A DNA stretch of 21,490 nt from a virus. The notes beneath the pieces were generated by a model. That model had not been told where the DNA came from. It saw only the letters and a list, made by a program, of their open reading frames with translations, and did not search any database. The translations under genes were made by a program, and so were the position numbers. Where the stretch lies: positions 1 to 21,490 of IMG/VR virus record IMGVR_UViG_3300043429_000179. One strand, written 5' to 3'. Each line of letters begins with the position of its first letter. Within the stretch, counting starts at the first letter, position 1. Positions 960 to 7,202 of the stretch are shown one piece after another.

Positions 960-2162
960 TTATTCTTTGTCCAGATATATGGTCATGCCTGTCTGCGCCG
1001 TGATGCCCTTGCTCGTCACAACCCACAGCACAGGGCAGTCGAAGTCAGGCCACATATCTACGTAGCCATCCGTCAGCATGATGATGCACTCAGGGTTGAG
1101 ATGTTTATCCGTCAAGTGTCGCTTGACGCATGACGGACTTGTGCCCCCGCCACCTCTAGGTTTGGTCGAGGTCGCCAGCATGTCGAGGTTGGTCTCGTTA
1201 TACTCCTCATGGCTAGCCACTGCGCTGTCCCAATAGAGCAGGTCAATCTTCTCAGGCTGCACTTGCTTAGCCACAGCCACCACCTCGGTAAGCATGGCGG
1301 TAATCTCAGGCCCAGTGATGGAGCCCGATGTGTCCACGCCCACCACGATGTGTCCGACACGCTCGCTCTGCATTGAAGGGAGCAGGATGTCTTGCGCTAA
1401 GAATCTACGATTTGGTCTGCGCCATGTGGATGTGTCACGCCCACTGCACGTCGAGCGCACAAACTCGGCCAGCACCTCACGCCAGTTGATCTTGGGATTG
1501 AGTAGCGCACTAAGCTCACGCTCTAGGTTGCTACCTCCCTTGCCGTTCACCTTGCGATGCTCACGCTCACCTTGACGCAGGGCTTGGTCGATGTCCTTGG
1601 CTAGCTTGTCCTTGGCCTCTTGGGTCATGCCGTTGGCAGACTGCCAGTCATGCTCGTCGAAGCCTTGGCCTACGCCGCTAGCGCCACCCCCGTTCTGCTT
1701 CTCCTGTTTGAGGATGCGATAGATGCTGGGCACGTCCATGCCCTTGAACCTAGTGTCGCACACACCGATGCGCTGCCCGTCGATCTTGGGGAAGGCAATG
1801 GTCTGTTCGGCTGGGTCCATATCTACCAGCAGCAGGTTGATGCGGTGGTCACACGCCACGTTGGCAAGCTCTGCGTCCTCCTCGAACAGGCGCTTCCATG
1901 TGGTCAGGTCACGCCCGATCTTGTGCAGGTTCTCGTGCAGCACGACGAAGGCAAGCATCTTCTCGTCTAGTATCTCAACCAGTTTACGTCCGTATAGCTC
2001 GTTACAGCCATCAGTGCAGGCGGTTGGGATGTCATCGCGTAGCTCGGTCCTGCCCACCATCATGATGCCACGCCAGAATGCAAAGCGCGGGTCACGCAGC
2101 AGGTTAATCTTGACACGCTTTAGTTTGCGGTCAGCGGTGTCCACTTGGGTCATCATGTTCAT
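960..2162 (-). CDS. Metallopeptidase-like (HExxH) and von Willebrand factor A domain protein
   Basis: This is a 400-aa protein. The N-terminal half contains HENLH (residues 76-80), an HExxH zinc-peptidase signature set in a helix (AFVVLHENLHKIG). This is typical of the putative metallopeptidase domain that accompanies VWA-like domains in the DUF2201 family. The C-terminal half is VWA-like: the MIDAS motif DTSGSI at 277-282, a Thr within GGGGTSP at 337-343, and LTDG at 363-366. Together these form a complete D.S.S...T...D metal site. A Gly-rich linker lies near 158-166. The gene sits directly downstream of a MoxR-like AAA+ ATPase and a 78-aa protein, so it resembles the general MoxR/VWA partnership (for example RavA-ViaA), in which ATPase and VWA protein remodel client complexes. 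Proteolysis is inferred only from HExxH. Start ATG 2162 has GGGAG eight bases upstream. Confidence 0.85.
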   Translation of the reverse strand: MNMMTQVDTADRKLKRVKINLLRDPRFAFWRGIMMVGRTELRDDIPTACTDGCNELYGRKLVEILDEKMLAFVVLHENLHKIGRDLTTWKRLFEEDAELANVACDHRINLLLVDMDPAEQTIAFPKIDGQRIGVCDTRFKGMDVPSIYRILKQEKQNGGGASGVGQGFDEHDWQSANGMTQEAKDKLAKDIDQALRQGEREHRKVNGKGGSNLERELSALLNPKINWREVLAEFVRSTCSGRDTSTWRRPNRRFLAQDILLPSMQSERVGHIVVGVDTSGSITGPEITAMLTEVVAVAKQVQPEKIDLLYWDSAVASHEEYNETNLDMLATSTKPRGGGGTSPSCVKRHLTDKHLNPECIIMLTDGYVDMWPDFDCPVLWVVTSKGITAQTGMTIYLDKE

Positions 2163-2367
2163 GGTTTGCTCCCTCCATCATTTGGTTTAGTTCGTTGTAG
2201 TCCCCGGTCGTGAATTGAATGTAAGCATCTAGCTCATCCTTGGCCCACAACTTCTGAAGATAGAGAAGGCCATTCTCTGCTCTATATTTAATGTTGTAGG
2301 GCACACACCCCTCGATCCGGTGATACCTAAACCGCTCGTCAAGCTCTGTTACCTCAAGCACCTCCAT
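2131..2367 (-). CDS. 78-aa protein between the AAA+ ATPase and the VWA protein
   Basis: This 78-aa protein begins MEVLEVTELDERFRYHRIEG and ends in a His/Asp-rich tail. I do not recognise the family. The frame could be extended 30 bases to a TTG, but ATG 2367 is preferred because it forms a TGATG junction with the ATPase stop (2367-2369), a classic coupled arrangement. The 3' end overlaps the VWA gene by 32 bases. The position is conspicuous: it is sandwiched with overlaps on both sides between the two halves of a MoxR/VWA pair. It may therefore be an adaptor or substrate of that pair, which is inference from context only. Confidence 0.7.
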   Translation of the reverse strand: MEVLEVTELDERFRYHRIEGCVPYNIKYRAENGLLYLQKLWAKDELDAYIQFTTGDYNELNQMMEGANHEHDDPSGHR

Positions 2368-3434
2368 CACAGCAGGTCTTGGTTCTTGGTCAGCCAATCG
2401 CGGTAGCTTGCGTTGGCAAAGCCCACCTTCTGCTTGTTGGACTTGGCAAGAGCGAGGCAGAATGTCGCCTGCCAGTTGGTGTCGAACCGATCCAAATACT
2501 GCATGAACGGGTCGATGGTCTCAGCCTCCACACGCTGCACTGCACCAAAGACTAGCACAGCAGACGCACCGGGACTGTCCGGCACACGCGCAGACTTAGG
2601 GTTAGCGATGATGTCAGCCCATGCGGGAAGCTCGTTCTGATGCTCGATATACGCACCTAGATCACGCGCTGCTTGCTCACCGATTGTGCCGATCAAGGCT
2701 GCGGTCATGGCGTTGGAGCCAAGCTCACGCCTACGCTTCACGATATGCGATGCGCGGGAGAGCGAGCGAGGTGAGACGTAGACCTTAGACGGGCGGCGCG
2801 GGTTGTAGATGTAGTGATTGTCCTCTTGACCATCGTCTAAGTAGCTAGCGAATAGCTGCGGGACTTCCTTGACGAACGCAATGATCGCGCCATCCACGCC
2901 AGCGTCAACTGCGTAGTTGTGAATCCACTCGTCTGCGGTTGGCTTGCGCATACGCACAGTGGTCTGTCGATTGATGGTGTGCGCCTTGCGGTTGTCGCCC
3001 ACCCCGTCCGTTGTCAGGTTGCCAGTCGTAAACACGATAGAGCCCGGCGGCAGCGGGATGTCACCGAAGCGCGGGTTGGTCTCCTCTAACAGCGGGTGCA
3101 GCATGTTCTGCACGGGGGCTGCGCCCTTGGGAAACTCGTCGAGCATGATGATAACAGGCTCGCCAAGGTGCAGGTTGAACCGCTCGTTAGGGTAATAGCC
3201 AGTGGTCTTGCTGTCGTGCTTGATGACAGGCAACGCCACGTCACCGATGTCCAAGTTGGGCACGTCGATATAGGCCCAGCGGGTGATGCCCGTGCGCTTG
3301 CTGATATGCTGAATGCCAGATGATTTGCCGATACCCATCTCGCCCTCAACGTGAACACGCAGTTCCGGGCAGAAAGAGATCAGGTCGAACGTCTCGTTGA
3401 AGCTCAGCGTCGAGCCAAAGTTAATCATAGTCAT
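2367..3434 (-). CDS. MoxR-like AAA+ ATPase
   Basis: This 355-aa protein has the AAA+ core motifs in order: Walker A GEMGIGKS at residues 31-38, Walker B VIIMLDEF at 94-101, sensor 1 TTGN at 136-139, and arginine-finger candidates at R156 and R161 (NRQTTVRMR). The extended insertion pattern and the downstream VWA gene place it with the MoxR/RavA/CobS-like ATPases, which act as oligomeric chaperones on partner complexes. The frame is open to a GTG at 3461, but ATG 3434 is chosen because AAGGAGC ends about 7 bases before it. A minus-strand promoter (3512-3540) and a palindromic operator-like site (3459-3478) lie upstream, so the three-gene ATPase/VWA unit can be controlled separately from the small genes before it. 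CobS-like chelatase is an alternative, but no cobalamin gene is nearby. Confidence 0.87.
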   Translation of the reverse strand: MTMINFGSTLSFNETFDLISFCPELRVHVEGEMGIGKSSGIQHISKRTGITRWAYIDVPNLDIGDVALPVIKHDSKTTGYYPNERFNLHLGEPVIIMLDEFPKGAAPVQNMLHPLLEETNPRFGDIPLPPGSIVFTTGNLTTDGVGDNRKAHTINRQTTVRMRKPTADEWIHNYAVDAGVDGAIIAFVKEVPQLFASYLDDGQEDNHYIYNPRRPSKVYVSPRSLSRASHIVKRRRELGSNAMTAALIGTIGEQAARDLGAYIEHQNELPAWADIIANPKSARVPDSPGASAVLVFGAVQRVEAETIDPFMQYLDRFDTNWQATFCLALAKSNKQKVGFANASYRDWLTKNQDLL

Positions 3435-3458: not shown

Positions 3459-3478
3459 CACCTCAACTGGTTGAGATA
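3459..3478. promoter_or_regulatory. 20-bp palindromic operator-like site, copy 2
   Basis: The sequence is CACCTCAACTGGTTGAGATA. The inner 14 bases, CTCAACTGGTTGAG, are symmetric except at the central pair; the outer left arm has drifted from the family consensus. It lies between the promoter at 3512-3540 and the AAA+ gene, roughly +27 to +46 in the predicted transcript. Repression by roadblock is possible. Confidence 0.65.
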
Positions 3479-4346: not shown

Positions 4347-4550
4347 TCACTCTCCTACTCTCTTAGGGTTAAGCATCTTGAGTTCCTCGGGGTTGGTCAC
4401 GAGGATGTAATTTGATTTGGAAAGCGGCACTGCCGCCCAGCTTACCATGTGCGCCCGCTTGTCTCCGCATGGCATACATACGTCATAGCCTAGCCGCGCA
4501 CGGGCTGCCGGGTAAAGGTCACCGCACTTGCGGCATATAACTTCAGTCAT
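4347..4550 (-). CDS. Small zinc-ribbon protein (67 aa)
   Basis: Two CxxC knuckles are visible: C6/C9 (ICRKCG) and C25/C28 (VCMPCG), separated by 15 residues, forming a four-cysteine zinc ribbon. The C-terminal half (LSKSNYILVTNPEELKMLNPK) is not recognised. Such small zinc-ribbon proteins are common in phage early regions and may bind nucleic acid or RNA polymerase; the specific role is unknown. Start ATG 4550 uses the shared leader GGAGCAAAC, and operator copy 3 (4561-4580) lies immediately upstream of it. Confidence 0.7.
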   Translation of the reverse strand: MTEVICRKCGDLYPAARARLGYDVCMPCGDKRAHMVSWAAVPLSKSNYILVTNPEELKMLNPKRVGE

Positions 4551-4560
4551 CGTTTGCTCC

Positions 4561-4580
4561 TATCTTAACTGGTTGAGCTA
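4561..4580. promoter_or_regulatory. 20-bp palindromic operator-like site, copy 3
   Basis: The sequence is TATCTTAACTGGTTGAGCTA. It fills the space between the 113-aa gene (its stop 4578-4580 lies inside the site) and the GGAGCAAAC leader of the zinc-ribbon gene. It is the same family as copies 1, 2, 4, 5 and 6. Confidence 0.75.
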
Positions 4581-4931: not shown

Positions 4932-5147
4932 TTAGTTGATGTTTTGAAGGATGCCGCTCACGTCACGCAACGTGCGGGCGTAGAAATAGGGGATGGTGTT
5001 GTCAGTCACGACAACCTGTGCGGCGCGATAGCCACGATACGAGTCGTGCTTCTGGATGATGTATTGGTTGCCGCTGCGGTCCCACCCGACATACTGGTAA
5101 AACTTGGTGGGCAATGCGCGTTCGATGTTGATGTAGCTTCTAGCCAT
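4932..5147 (-). CDS. First gene of the small-protein operon (71 aa)
   Basis: It begins MARSYINIERALPTKFYQYV and is rich in Tyr and Arg, ending DVSGILQNIN. ATG 5147 is chosen over a GTG at 5162 because GGAG lies nine bases before 5147. It is the promoter-proximal gene: the extended -10 promoter at 5221-5249 and operator copy 4 (5164-5183) lie directly upstream. I do not recognise the family, and no motif or membrane segment is seen. Being first behind a strong regulated promoter suggests an immediate-early product. Confidence 0.65.
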   Translation of the reverse strand: MARSYINIERALPTKFYQYVGWDRSGNQYIIQKHDSYRGYRAAQVVVTDNTIPYFYARTLRDVSGILQNIN

Positions 5148-5163
5148 CGTTTCAGTCTCCACT

Positions 5164-5183
5164 TATCTTAACTGGTTGAGCTA
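5164..5183. promoter_or_regulatory. 20-bp palindromic operator-like site, copy 4
   Basis: The sequence is TATCTTAACTGGTTGAGCTA, identical to copy 3. It lies between the promoter at 5221-5249 and the first gene of the leftward operon, about +31 to +50 of the predicted transcript. With copy 5 it flanks the promoter, a layout compatible with looping or roadblock repression. Confidence 0.75.
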
Positions 5184-5267: not shown

Positions 5268-5287
5268 TAGCTCAACCGGTTGAGATA
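5268..5287. promoter_or_regulatory. 20-bp palindromic operator-like site, copy 5
   Basis: The sequence is TAGCTCAACCGGTTGAGATA, symmetric at all but one pair and the closest to the consensus. Its centre is 31 bp upstream of the centre of the -35 box at 5244-5249 (about -63). That is a class-I activator-like position. Confidence 0.75.
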
Positions 5288-5842: not shown

Positions 5843-6592
5843 TCAATCGTCTGCGAAGGCATCCGGGTTGCTAGCCACCAGCGCGGCGATTGCTCGCAGG
5901 TTGGACATGGTGGCAGCGCAAGCGGTCGCCTCGCCCTTGGCGATTAGCTTTGCCACCGCAACAGCAGCGCGGGTGATTTCGCTAGGCGTTGCGGCGCGGC
6001 CTTCGCTCTCATTCTGTGGCGCGGCGCGGCTGGTGCCAGCCTCGCCCTTGGCGGCCTTGACTAGCGCGCTAGTCGATTTGGCAGCAGCGGCCAGCAATTC
6101 ATCGCCTTCTGCCCCGCCTTCTAGCACCAGCTTGTCATCCACCAGCTTGGCGGTGATCGCGCGGCTCAATAGCGCGTTAGCGGTTGGCAAAGCCTTGCCT
6201 GTCACCAAAGCCCATGCGGCCTTGGCACCAGCCGATTGATCGCCGGGAACGCCAAACAAGGCTGGCAGCACAGTCGCGCGGAACGCCGATTGCTTTGTGC
6301 GGTTGTCCGAACCGTCTTCATTCTTGAAGCCAGACAGATAGTCTAGCAAGCTAGCCTTGGCGCTTTCCGTCACGTTGCCAGCGCGGTCTGTAACGTCAAA
6401 GGCAATGGGCAGGTTCATCATCTCGCCCGTGAGGCCAGCGATAATCATATCCAGCGCGGTTGCGCGTCCATCATTAGCGGCTTTGACTTGCTCACCAGCG
6501 ATAGCAGCAGCGCGGCCACCAGCGATCAGCAGATCAGCCGGGGCGGCCTTGGCACGGGCTTTATTGATGAAGGCGGTTGTCTTGTTAGTCAT
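5843..6592 (-). CDS. Unrecognised Ala-rich 249-aa protein
   Basis: This 249-aa protein is dominated by Ala, Lys and Leu helices. The N-terminus is MTNKTTAFINKARAKAAPAD; a more varied central part covers residues 55-150; the C-terminus ends NLRAIAALVASNPDAFADD. I do not recognise a family and see no Walker, zinc or HTH motif, nor signal or membrane segment. ATG 6592 is supported by AAAGGA about nine bases upstream. It stands alone with its own strong terminator, and a TTGACA element (6676-6681) plus operator copy 6 lie upstream, so it forms a single-gene unit next to the candidate origin. Candidates by position are a replication, regulatory or single-strand-binding-type factor; none is supported by motifs. 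Confidence 0.75.
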   Translation of the reverse strand: MTNKTTAFINKARAKAAPADLLIAGGRAAAIAGEQVKAANDGRATALDMIIAGLTGEMMNLPIAFDVTDRAGNVTESAKASLLDYLSGFKNEDGSDNRTKQSAFRATVLPALFGVPGDQSAGAKAAWALVTGKALPTANALLSRAITAKLVDDKLVLEGGAEGDELLAAAAKSTSALVKAAKGEAGTSRAAPQNESEGRAATPSEITRAAVAVAKLIAKGEATACAATMSNLRAIAALVASNPDAFADD

Positions 6593-6689: not shown

Positions 6690-6709
6690 TATCTCAACCG
6701 GTTAAGCTA
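6690..6709. promoter_or_regulatory. 20-bp palindromic operator-like site, copy 6
   Basis: The sequence is TATCTCAACCGGTTAAGCTA. Its centre is 21 bp upstream of the centre of the TTGACA at 6676-6681, exactly 10 bp (about one helical turn) closer than the equivalent spacing for copy 5. Confidence 0.75.
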
Positions 6710-7127: not shown

Positions 7128-7202
7128 GGGGGTGGCGTAGTTCAGAGGTCAGAACGGTCGCTTCGGTGTCAATGTCGTTGGTTCGAATCCAACCCCACCC
7201 CC
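7128..7202 (+). tRNA. Degenerate tRNA-like sequence
   Basis: Several tRNA hallmarks are present. The 5' run GGGGGTGG (7128-7135) pairs over 8 bp with CCACCCCC (7195-7202). The D arm is GTTC-AGAGGTCA-GAAC (7140-7155). The T arm is perfect: GTTGG-TTCGAAT-CCAAC (7177-7193). The segment that should be the anticodon arm (7156-7176) does not fold into a 5-bp stem and 7-base loop and is one or two bases short, so no anticodon can be assigned (GTC or GTG triplets are present but not properly framed). CCA is not encoded. It could be a decayed tRNA, a tRNA-like structure, or a tRNA-derived attachment sequence. It is followed within 65 bases by the terminase small subunit gene. Confidence 0.45.

Follow-up and report, generated by a model that had tools for sequence, protein, structure and literature searches.

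The early-region locus described here probably encodes, by analogy with known systems of AAA+ and VWA-domain proteins, an AAA+/MIDAS remodelling machine of early infection, in which a MoxR-like ATPase would be coupled to a VWA protein, a DUF3150-family protein would be the third subunit, and an early complex would be the probable target. We put the probability of this reading at about 0.55. The locus lies on a viral contig of 21,490 bases, probably a fragment, which is referred to below as the window.

Gene organization

The order of transcription on the minus strand of the window is the ATPase gene (2367-3434; 355 aa), a 78-aa ORF (2131-2367), and the gene of a 400-aa metallopeptidase-like and VWA-like protein (960-2162). 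Beyond these come a gene for a 138-aa protein at 509-925, an ORF that ends at 262, and, truncated by the edge of the contig, a DUF3150 fragment (1-249). The coordinates originally given for the first three ORFs were borne out, as were the TGATG stop/start overlap of the ATPase and 78-aa genes and the overlap of the 78-aa and VWA genes, which extends over 32 nt. A private promoter had also been assigned to the operon, and in this case no sigma-70-type site was found at a plausible position. The terminase, portal, and head genes are carried on the plus strand from 7.3 kb of the window, so that the module and the late genes are transcribed divergently. A tRNA-Pro (cgg) gene at 7130-7202 on the plus strand separates the early and late gene blocks.

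The module is located in the early/replication region. In related loci, two families of about 291 and 114 aa come next, together with a small, apparently nuclease-like protein and a family A DNA polymerase downstream. Two families (c3 and c5, of about 291 and 321 aa; L024:6459-7334, L016:3524-4489, and others) adjoin the module in 58 and 52 loci, respectively, and are absent from the window.

The ATPase and its metallopeptidase-VWA partner

The ATPase matched phrog_1297 in the PHROG search (E=5e-45). Its residues include the Walker A lysine K37, the Walker B pair D99/E100, the sensor-1 asparagine N139, and the arginines R156 and R223. Walker A, Walker B, the sensor-1 Asn, and the arginines were invariant among 55 aligned ATPase sequences; in a larger alignment of 75, the Walker A Lys was present in 74 of the 74 ungapped ATPases, and the Walker B Asp, the sensor-1 Asn, and the two arginines were present in all 75. 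The original prediction of a MoxR-like ATPase with intact Walker A, Walker B, and sensor motifs had placed these positions correctly, and they are kept in the relatives. When a profile of the ATPase was compared with the PDB, it matched Midasin (the best match), NorQ, and MoxR (2r44); single-sequence PDB searches with the ATPase or the VWA protein as query yielded no useful match. Against PF07728 (AAA_5), the window ATPase scored 17.6 bits, which is below the curated cut-off of 22, and its close relative in locus L002 scored 37.5 bits. For PF07726 (AAA_3), the family of MoxR sensu stricto, the L002 relative reached 13.1 bits against a cut-off of 27, and the window ATPase was not listed. Because neither protein attained the AAA_3 cut-off, we refer to the enzyme as MoxR-like and not as MoxR proper.

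The 400-aa partner matched phrog_1314 in the same kind of search (E=1.7e-84) and consists of a PF13203 domain (DUF2201_N, metallopeptidase-like; 75.6 bits, cut-off 23.2), which holds the HExxH motif at residues 76-80, followed by a PF09967 domain (DUF2201, VWA-like; 54.7 bits, cut-off 26.4). The MIDAS is complete (D277, S279, S281, T341, and D365), and each of its residues is found in 82 of 82 aligned VWA proteins, as are the HExxH motif, D105, and N109. The HExxH at 76-80 and the DTSGSI MIDAS from D277 had been located correctly and are kept in the relatives. A check for loss of K37, E77, and D277 found all three catalytic residues conserved in the relatives, so the prediction stands on this point. 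The fourth His of the pattern HExxHxxxxH is replaced by Asp in the window protein only (H85D) and is His in the other 81 proteins; Asp is also able to ligate metal, and the fourth His, though usual among relatives, is not known to be a requirement of the family. Nearly all cellular relatives of full length have HExxHxxxxH as well. In the AlphaFold model of the 400-aa protein, the HExxH is located in a helix and the C-terminal part has a VWA fold, with Z up to 12.7 against VWA/MIDAS structures, including the midasin MIDAS and NorQD. A fold search of solved structures for the N-terminal domain gave no informative match, the match list being almost entirely due to the VWA domain. Judged by its motif, the N-terminal domain is a candidate zincin metallopeptidase.

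Members of this metallopeptidase-VWA family carry the label "HNH endonuclease" in PHROGs (PHROG 1314) and in many GenBank/RefSeq phage records, without Pfam support. We rejected the label, since Pfam matches above the cut-off give PF13203 and PF09967 only.

Distribution of the gene pair

To describe the spread of the two genes, we used a set of 81 loci, composed of 80 IMG/VR loci and the window. Both genes are present in 74 of them and are adjacent, on the same strand, and with the ATPase gene upstream in every one of the 74. In the seven loci that have no ATPase gene, the contig begins inside the VWA gene or within 431 nt of it. Among about 50,700 GenBank phage records, the VWA protein was found in at least 740 and the ATPase in 388, and the ATPase is present in 13 of 13 examined regions around the VWA genes of N4 and other named phages and plasmids. 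Bacillus phage G and jumbo, cyano-, and Thermus phages carry the pair too, as do plasmids and bacterial and archaeal contigs, the cellular ones ranging from Acidobacteria to Archaeoglobales. The earlier view is supported insofar as it saw a MoxR-like ATPase and a metallopeptidase-VWA protein as a pair, encoded in an operon of early type that has an operator.

The pair is gp24/gp25 of phage N4 (Schitoviridae; PHROG 1297/1314), which has the same two genes with the same domain order and shows homology over nearly the full length at an identity of about 20-30%. The same kind of pair has been described in jumbo phages (Iyer et al. 2021, PMC7824862), and for these two reasons the pair is not new. 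In our literature search, we found no functional study of N4 gp24/gp25 and no experiment on any phage member of the pair.

The third gene of the module

The original prediction had included the 78-aa gene in a conserved three-gene system and had suggested that its product is the substrate adaptor. The ORF looks coding, to judge from codon usage: the part that overlaps neither neighboring gene has a score of 0.32, whereas the median of coding sequence is 0.35 and the remaining frames of that strand score about -0.44. The coding-like codon usage, together with the TGATG junction with the ATPase gene and the overlap with the VWA gene, would be in agreement with a dedicated adaptor of the pair. 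However, no relatives of the protein were found in IMG/VR, GenBank phages, Pfam, PHROGs, NCBIfam, or PADLOC, and the gap between the ATPase and VWA genes is at most 60 nt or negative in 37 of 74 loci, while in others it holds small ORFs unlike the 78-aa protein. The gene is thus an orphan confined to the window, inserted locally into a slot whose content varies, and we rejected the conserved adaptor as highly improbable. Lack of conservation of this gene with the pair had been named beforehand as what would refute the three-gene system, and such conservation was indeed not found. Within the best explanation, we lean toward seeing the 78-aa protein as a passenger or modulator that is specific to the lineage and outside the core.

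The conserved third gene of the module, missed by the first reading, is DUF3150. When the 298-aa gene of locus L029 was used to start an iterated search, 73 of 81 loci proved to contain it; in the remaining eight, the contig ends close to the pair. The window ORF at 1-249 was matched in this search at E=4.6e-33, and on this similarity it is assigned as the N-terminus of a DUF3150 protein. The full-length L029 orthologue scored 28.1 bits against DUF3150 (PF11348; cut-off 24.9); the window fragment, only 83 residues long, was unmatched by PF11348. In BFVD, the DUF3150 model matched other phage proteins, of which the best match is annotated as DUF3150, and there was a weak match in Mycobacterium phage Dylan. 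Comparison of the fold with the PDB (Foldseek, VIA-align 2) returned generic helical bundles only (best Z 9.0) and was not informative, and no mention of the term DUF3150 was found in the literature search.

In Burkholderiales plasmids, the gene order is ATPase, DUF3150, and VWA; in one of these plasmids, the middle gene is annotated as hypothetical and was assigned to DUF3150 by profile. The plasmid counts are equal for DUF3150 and VWA (Burkholderia, 13; Cupriavidus, 8; Paraburkholderia, 8; Variovorax, 4; Caballeronia, 4). The same order recurs in cyanophage MinM2, an Acidobacteria contig, and Herminiimonas, and DUF3150 is present on some bacterial chromosomes. DUF3150 was not detected near the pair in the examined regions of N4, phage G, rV5-like, Thermus, S-TIM61, and jumbo phages. 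It is therefore not universal, and we regard it as a lineage extension of the wider pair.

Palindromic sites

A palindromic operator had been noted before the ATPase gene. It is present, and it can be extended to six exact copies of CTYAACYRGTTRAG in the window, where 0 are expected; all lie in the first 6.7 kb, and four are just upstream of a minus-strand gene start. The putative operator upstream of the ATPase gene is at 3462-3475 (CTCAACTGGTTGAG), and another copy is found just past the VWA gene and ahead of the 138-aa gene at 942-955 (CTTAACTGGTTGAG). Further copies are located at 4564-4577, upstream of a 67-aa gene (4347-4550), and at 5167-5180, upstream of a 76-aa gene (4932-5162; its first ATG is a few codons further in). 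The last two are at 5271-5284 (CTCAACCGGTTGAG) and at 6693-6706 (CTCAACCGGTTAAG), the latter upstream of a 249-aa gene (5843-6592), and both have TTGACATTGT downstream on the minus strand.

The palindrome CTCAACYRGTTGAG was absent from every locus of other viruses, and the relatives have their own palindromes. We counted 413 palindromes in 47 loci with distinct patterns, the window included, each locus with its own sequence; these counts are maxima over families, because the most frequent family was picked per locus. Eleven of the 413 fall inside the three genes, compared with about 118 expected, and a palindrome is present at the start of the ATPase gene in 41 of the 47 loci. In MinM2, 21 copies of its own GGTTCA-3-TGAACC element are present within 24.8 kb, and by our count 17 are 32-96 nt upstream of an annotated start. 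Markov-shuffled controls, which were handled alike, had three copies at most. The lineage-specific palindromes between early genes look like a dispersed operator set. The palindrome arms differ between phages and stay complementary (the window and L003, L010, L029, L031, L066, L067, and L082).

Possible function of the module

Several known systems resemble the module. NorQ/NorD, CbbQ/CbbO, and RavA/ViaA likewise consist of an AAA+ ring ATPase and a VWA partner encoded together, and NorQ and NorQD were matched by the ATPase profile and the VWA domain of the window, respectively. The targets of these systems (NOR, rubisco, and respiratory enzymes) have left no sign here, and to our knowledge none of the three has an HExxH domain. 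Midasin (Rea1/Mdn1), the best PDB match of the ATPase profile, also combines AAA modules with a MIDAS, but it is a single giant chain that acts in ribosome assembly. The Burkholderiales plasmid operons contain all three families in one operon, in a plasmid setting.

In the NorQ/NorD system, the VWA domain extends a finger into the pore of the ring, and ATP-driven motion rotates this finger; the mechanism is presumed by the authors to be general for MoxR/VWA pairs, and they suggest that target specificity is due to the N-terminal domain of the VWA protein (PMC13036017, PMC9976466). By analogy, the ATPase of the window would form a ring, and the VWA domain of its partner would plug or dock on this ring and couple ATP hydrolysis to movement. 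The metal-binding N-terminal domain of the VWA chain might be the part that acts on the held target, either by clipping it or through a metal-dependent conformational change. The helical DUF3150 protein would be the third subunit, either as an adaptor or as a substrate, and the target would probably be an early host or phage protein complex. We infer the coupling of the VWA domain to the ring and the place of DUF3150 in the machine from synteny as well as analogy.

A different role, that of a virion assembly chaperone which also processes structural proteins by proteolysis, has been proposed for the same kind of pair in group 2.2 jumbo phages (Iyer et al. 2021, PMC7824862), where a MoxR ATPase likewise accompanies a vWA domain fused to an N-terminal metallopeptidase domain. 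The pair of cyanophage S-TIM61, which is near a gene annotated as virion structural, agrees with this proposal. In the present case, however, the pair is found with DUF3150 in an early-operon setting, on the strand opposite the terminase, portal, and head genes; the module of the relatives lies upstream of DNA polymerase in the early/replication region, and N4 gp24/gp25 have been called middle transcripts in a paper on N4-like phages (PMC4193335). The trio is also found on plasmids without virion genes nearby. The virion-assembly proposal fits less well with this early/replication setting, and we consider it unlikely for the module.

Known MoxR/VWA pairs also insert metal cofactors (PMC13036017), and a NorQD- or CobST-like machine might activate a host or phage metalloenzyme. 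The N-terminal domain, with its invariant HExxH and Asp and nearly always a fourth His, is suited to metal, and nucleotide-metabolism genes are near the pair in some phages. However, no single metalloenzyme gene is linked to the pair across hosts, and an HExxH site usually serves hydrolysis and not metal delivery, so that metal insertion seems equally unlikely. The cobalt-chelatase (CobS/CobT) idea, taken from cyanophages, found no NCBIfam match. The early location, the wide host range, and the varying insertion of small ORFs between the ATPase and VWA genes would suit a counter-defence or host-takeover device directed against a host complex. This explanation appears quite improbable, considering that the pair is also present on plasmids and chromosomes, that there was no meaningful PADLOC match, and that the residues are highly conserved, with no sign of fast change.

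We prefer the remodelling machine of early infection, while noting that H85D in the window protein, the failure to detect DUF3150 near the pair in several phages, and the uninformative fold search of the N-terminal domain are points against it. In its most specific form, which we put forward tentatively as somewhat doubtful, the AAA+ ring, the zincin-VWA protein, and DUF3150 would constitute a protease or remodeller, driven by ATP and gated by the MIDAS, that acts on an early target; it would be shared by phages and plasmids and placed in this phage clade under dispersed palindromic operators that vary from phage to phage.

The pair is widespread, including in the model phage N4, and is widely mislabelled as "HNH endonuclease". 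With DUF3150 as the correct third gene, a defined three-protein set is obtained, while the published idea of a role in virion assembly becomes testable through the early location. The switching of the palindromic operators between phages would raise a second, independent regulatory question.
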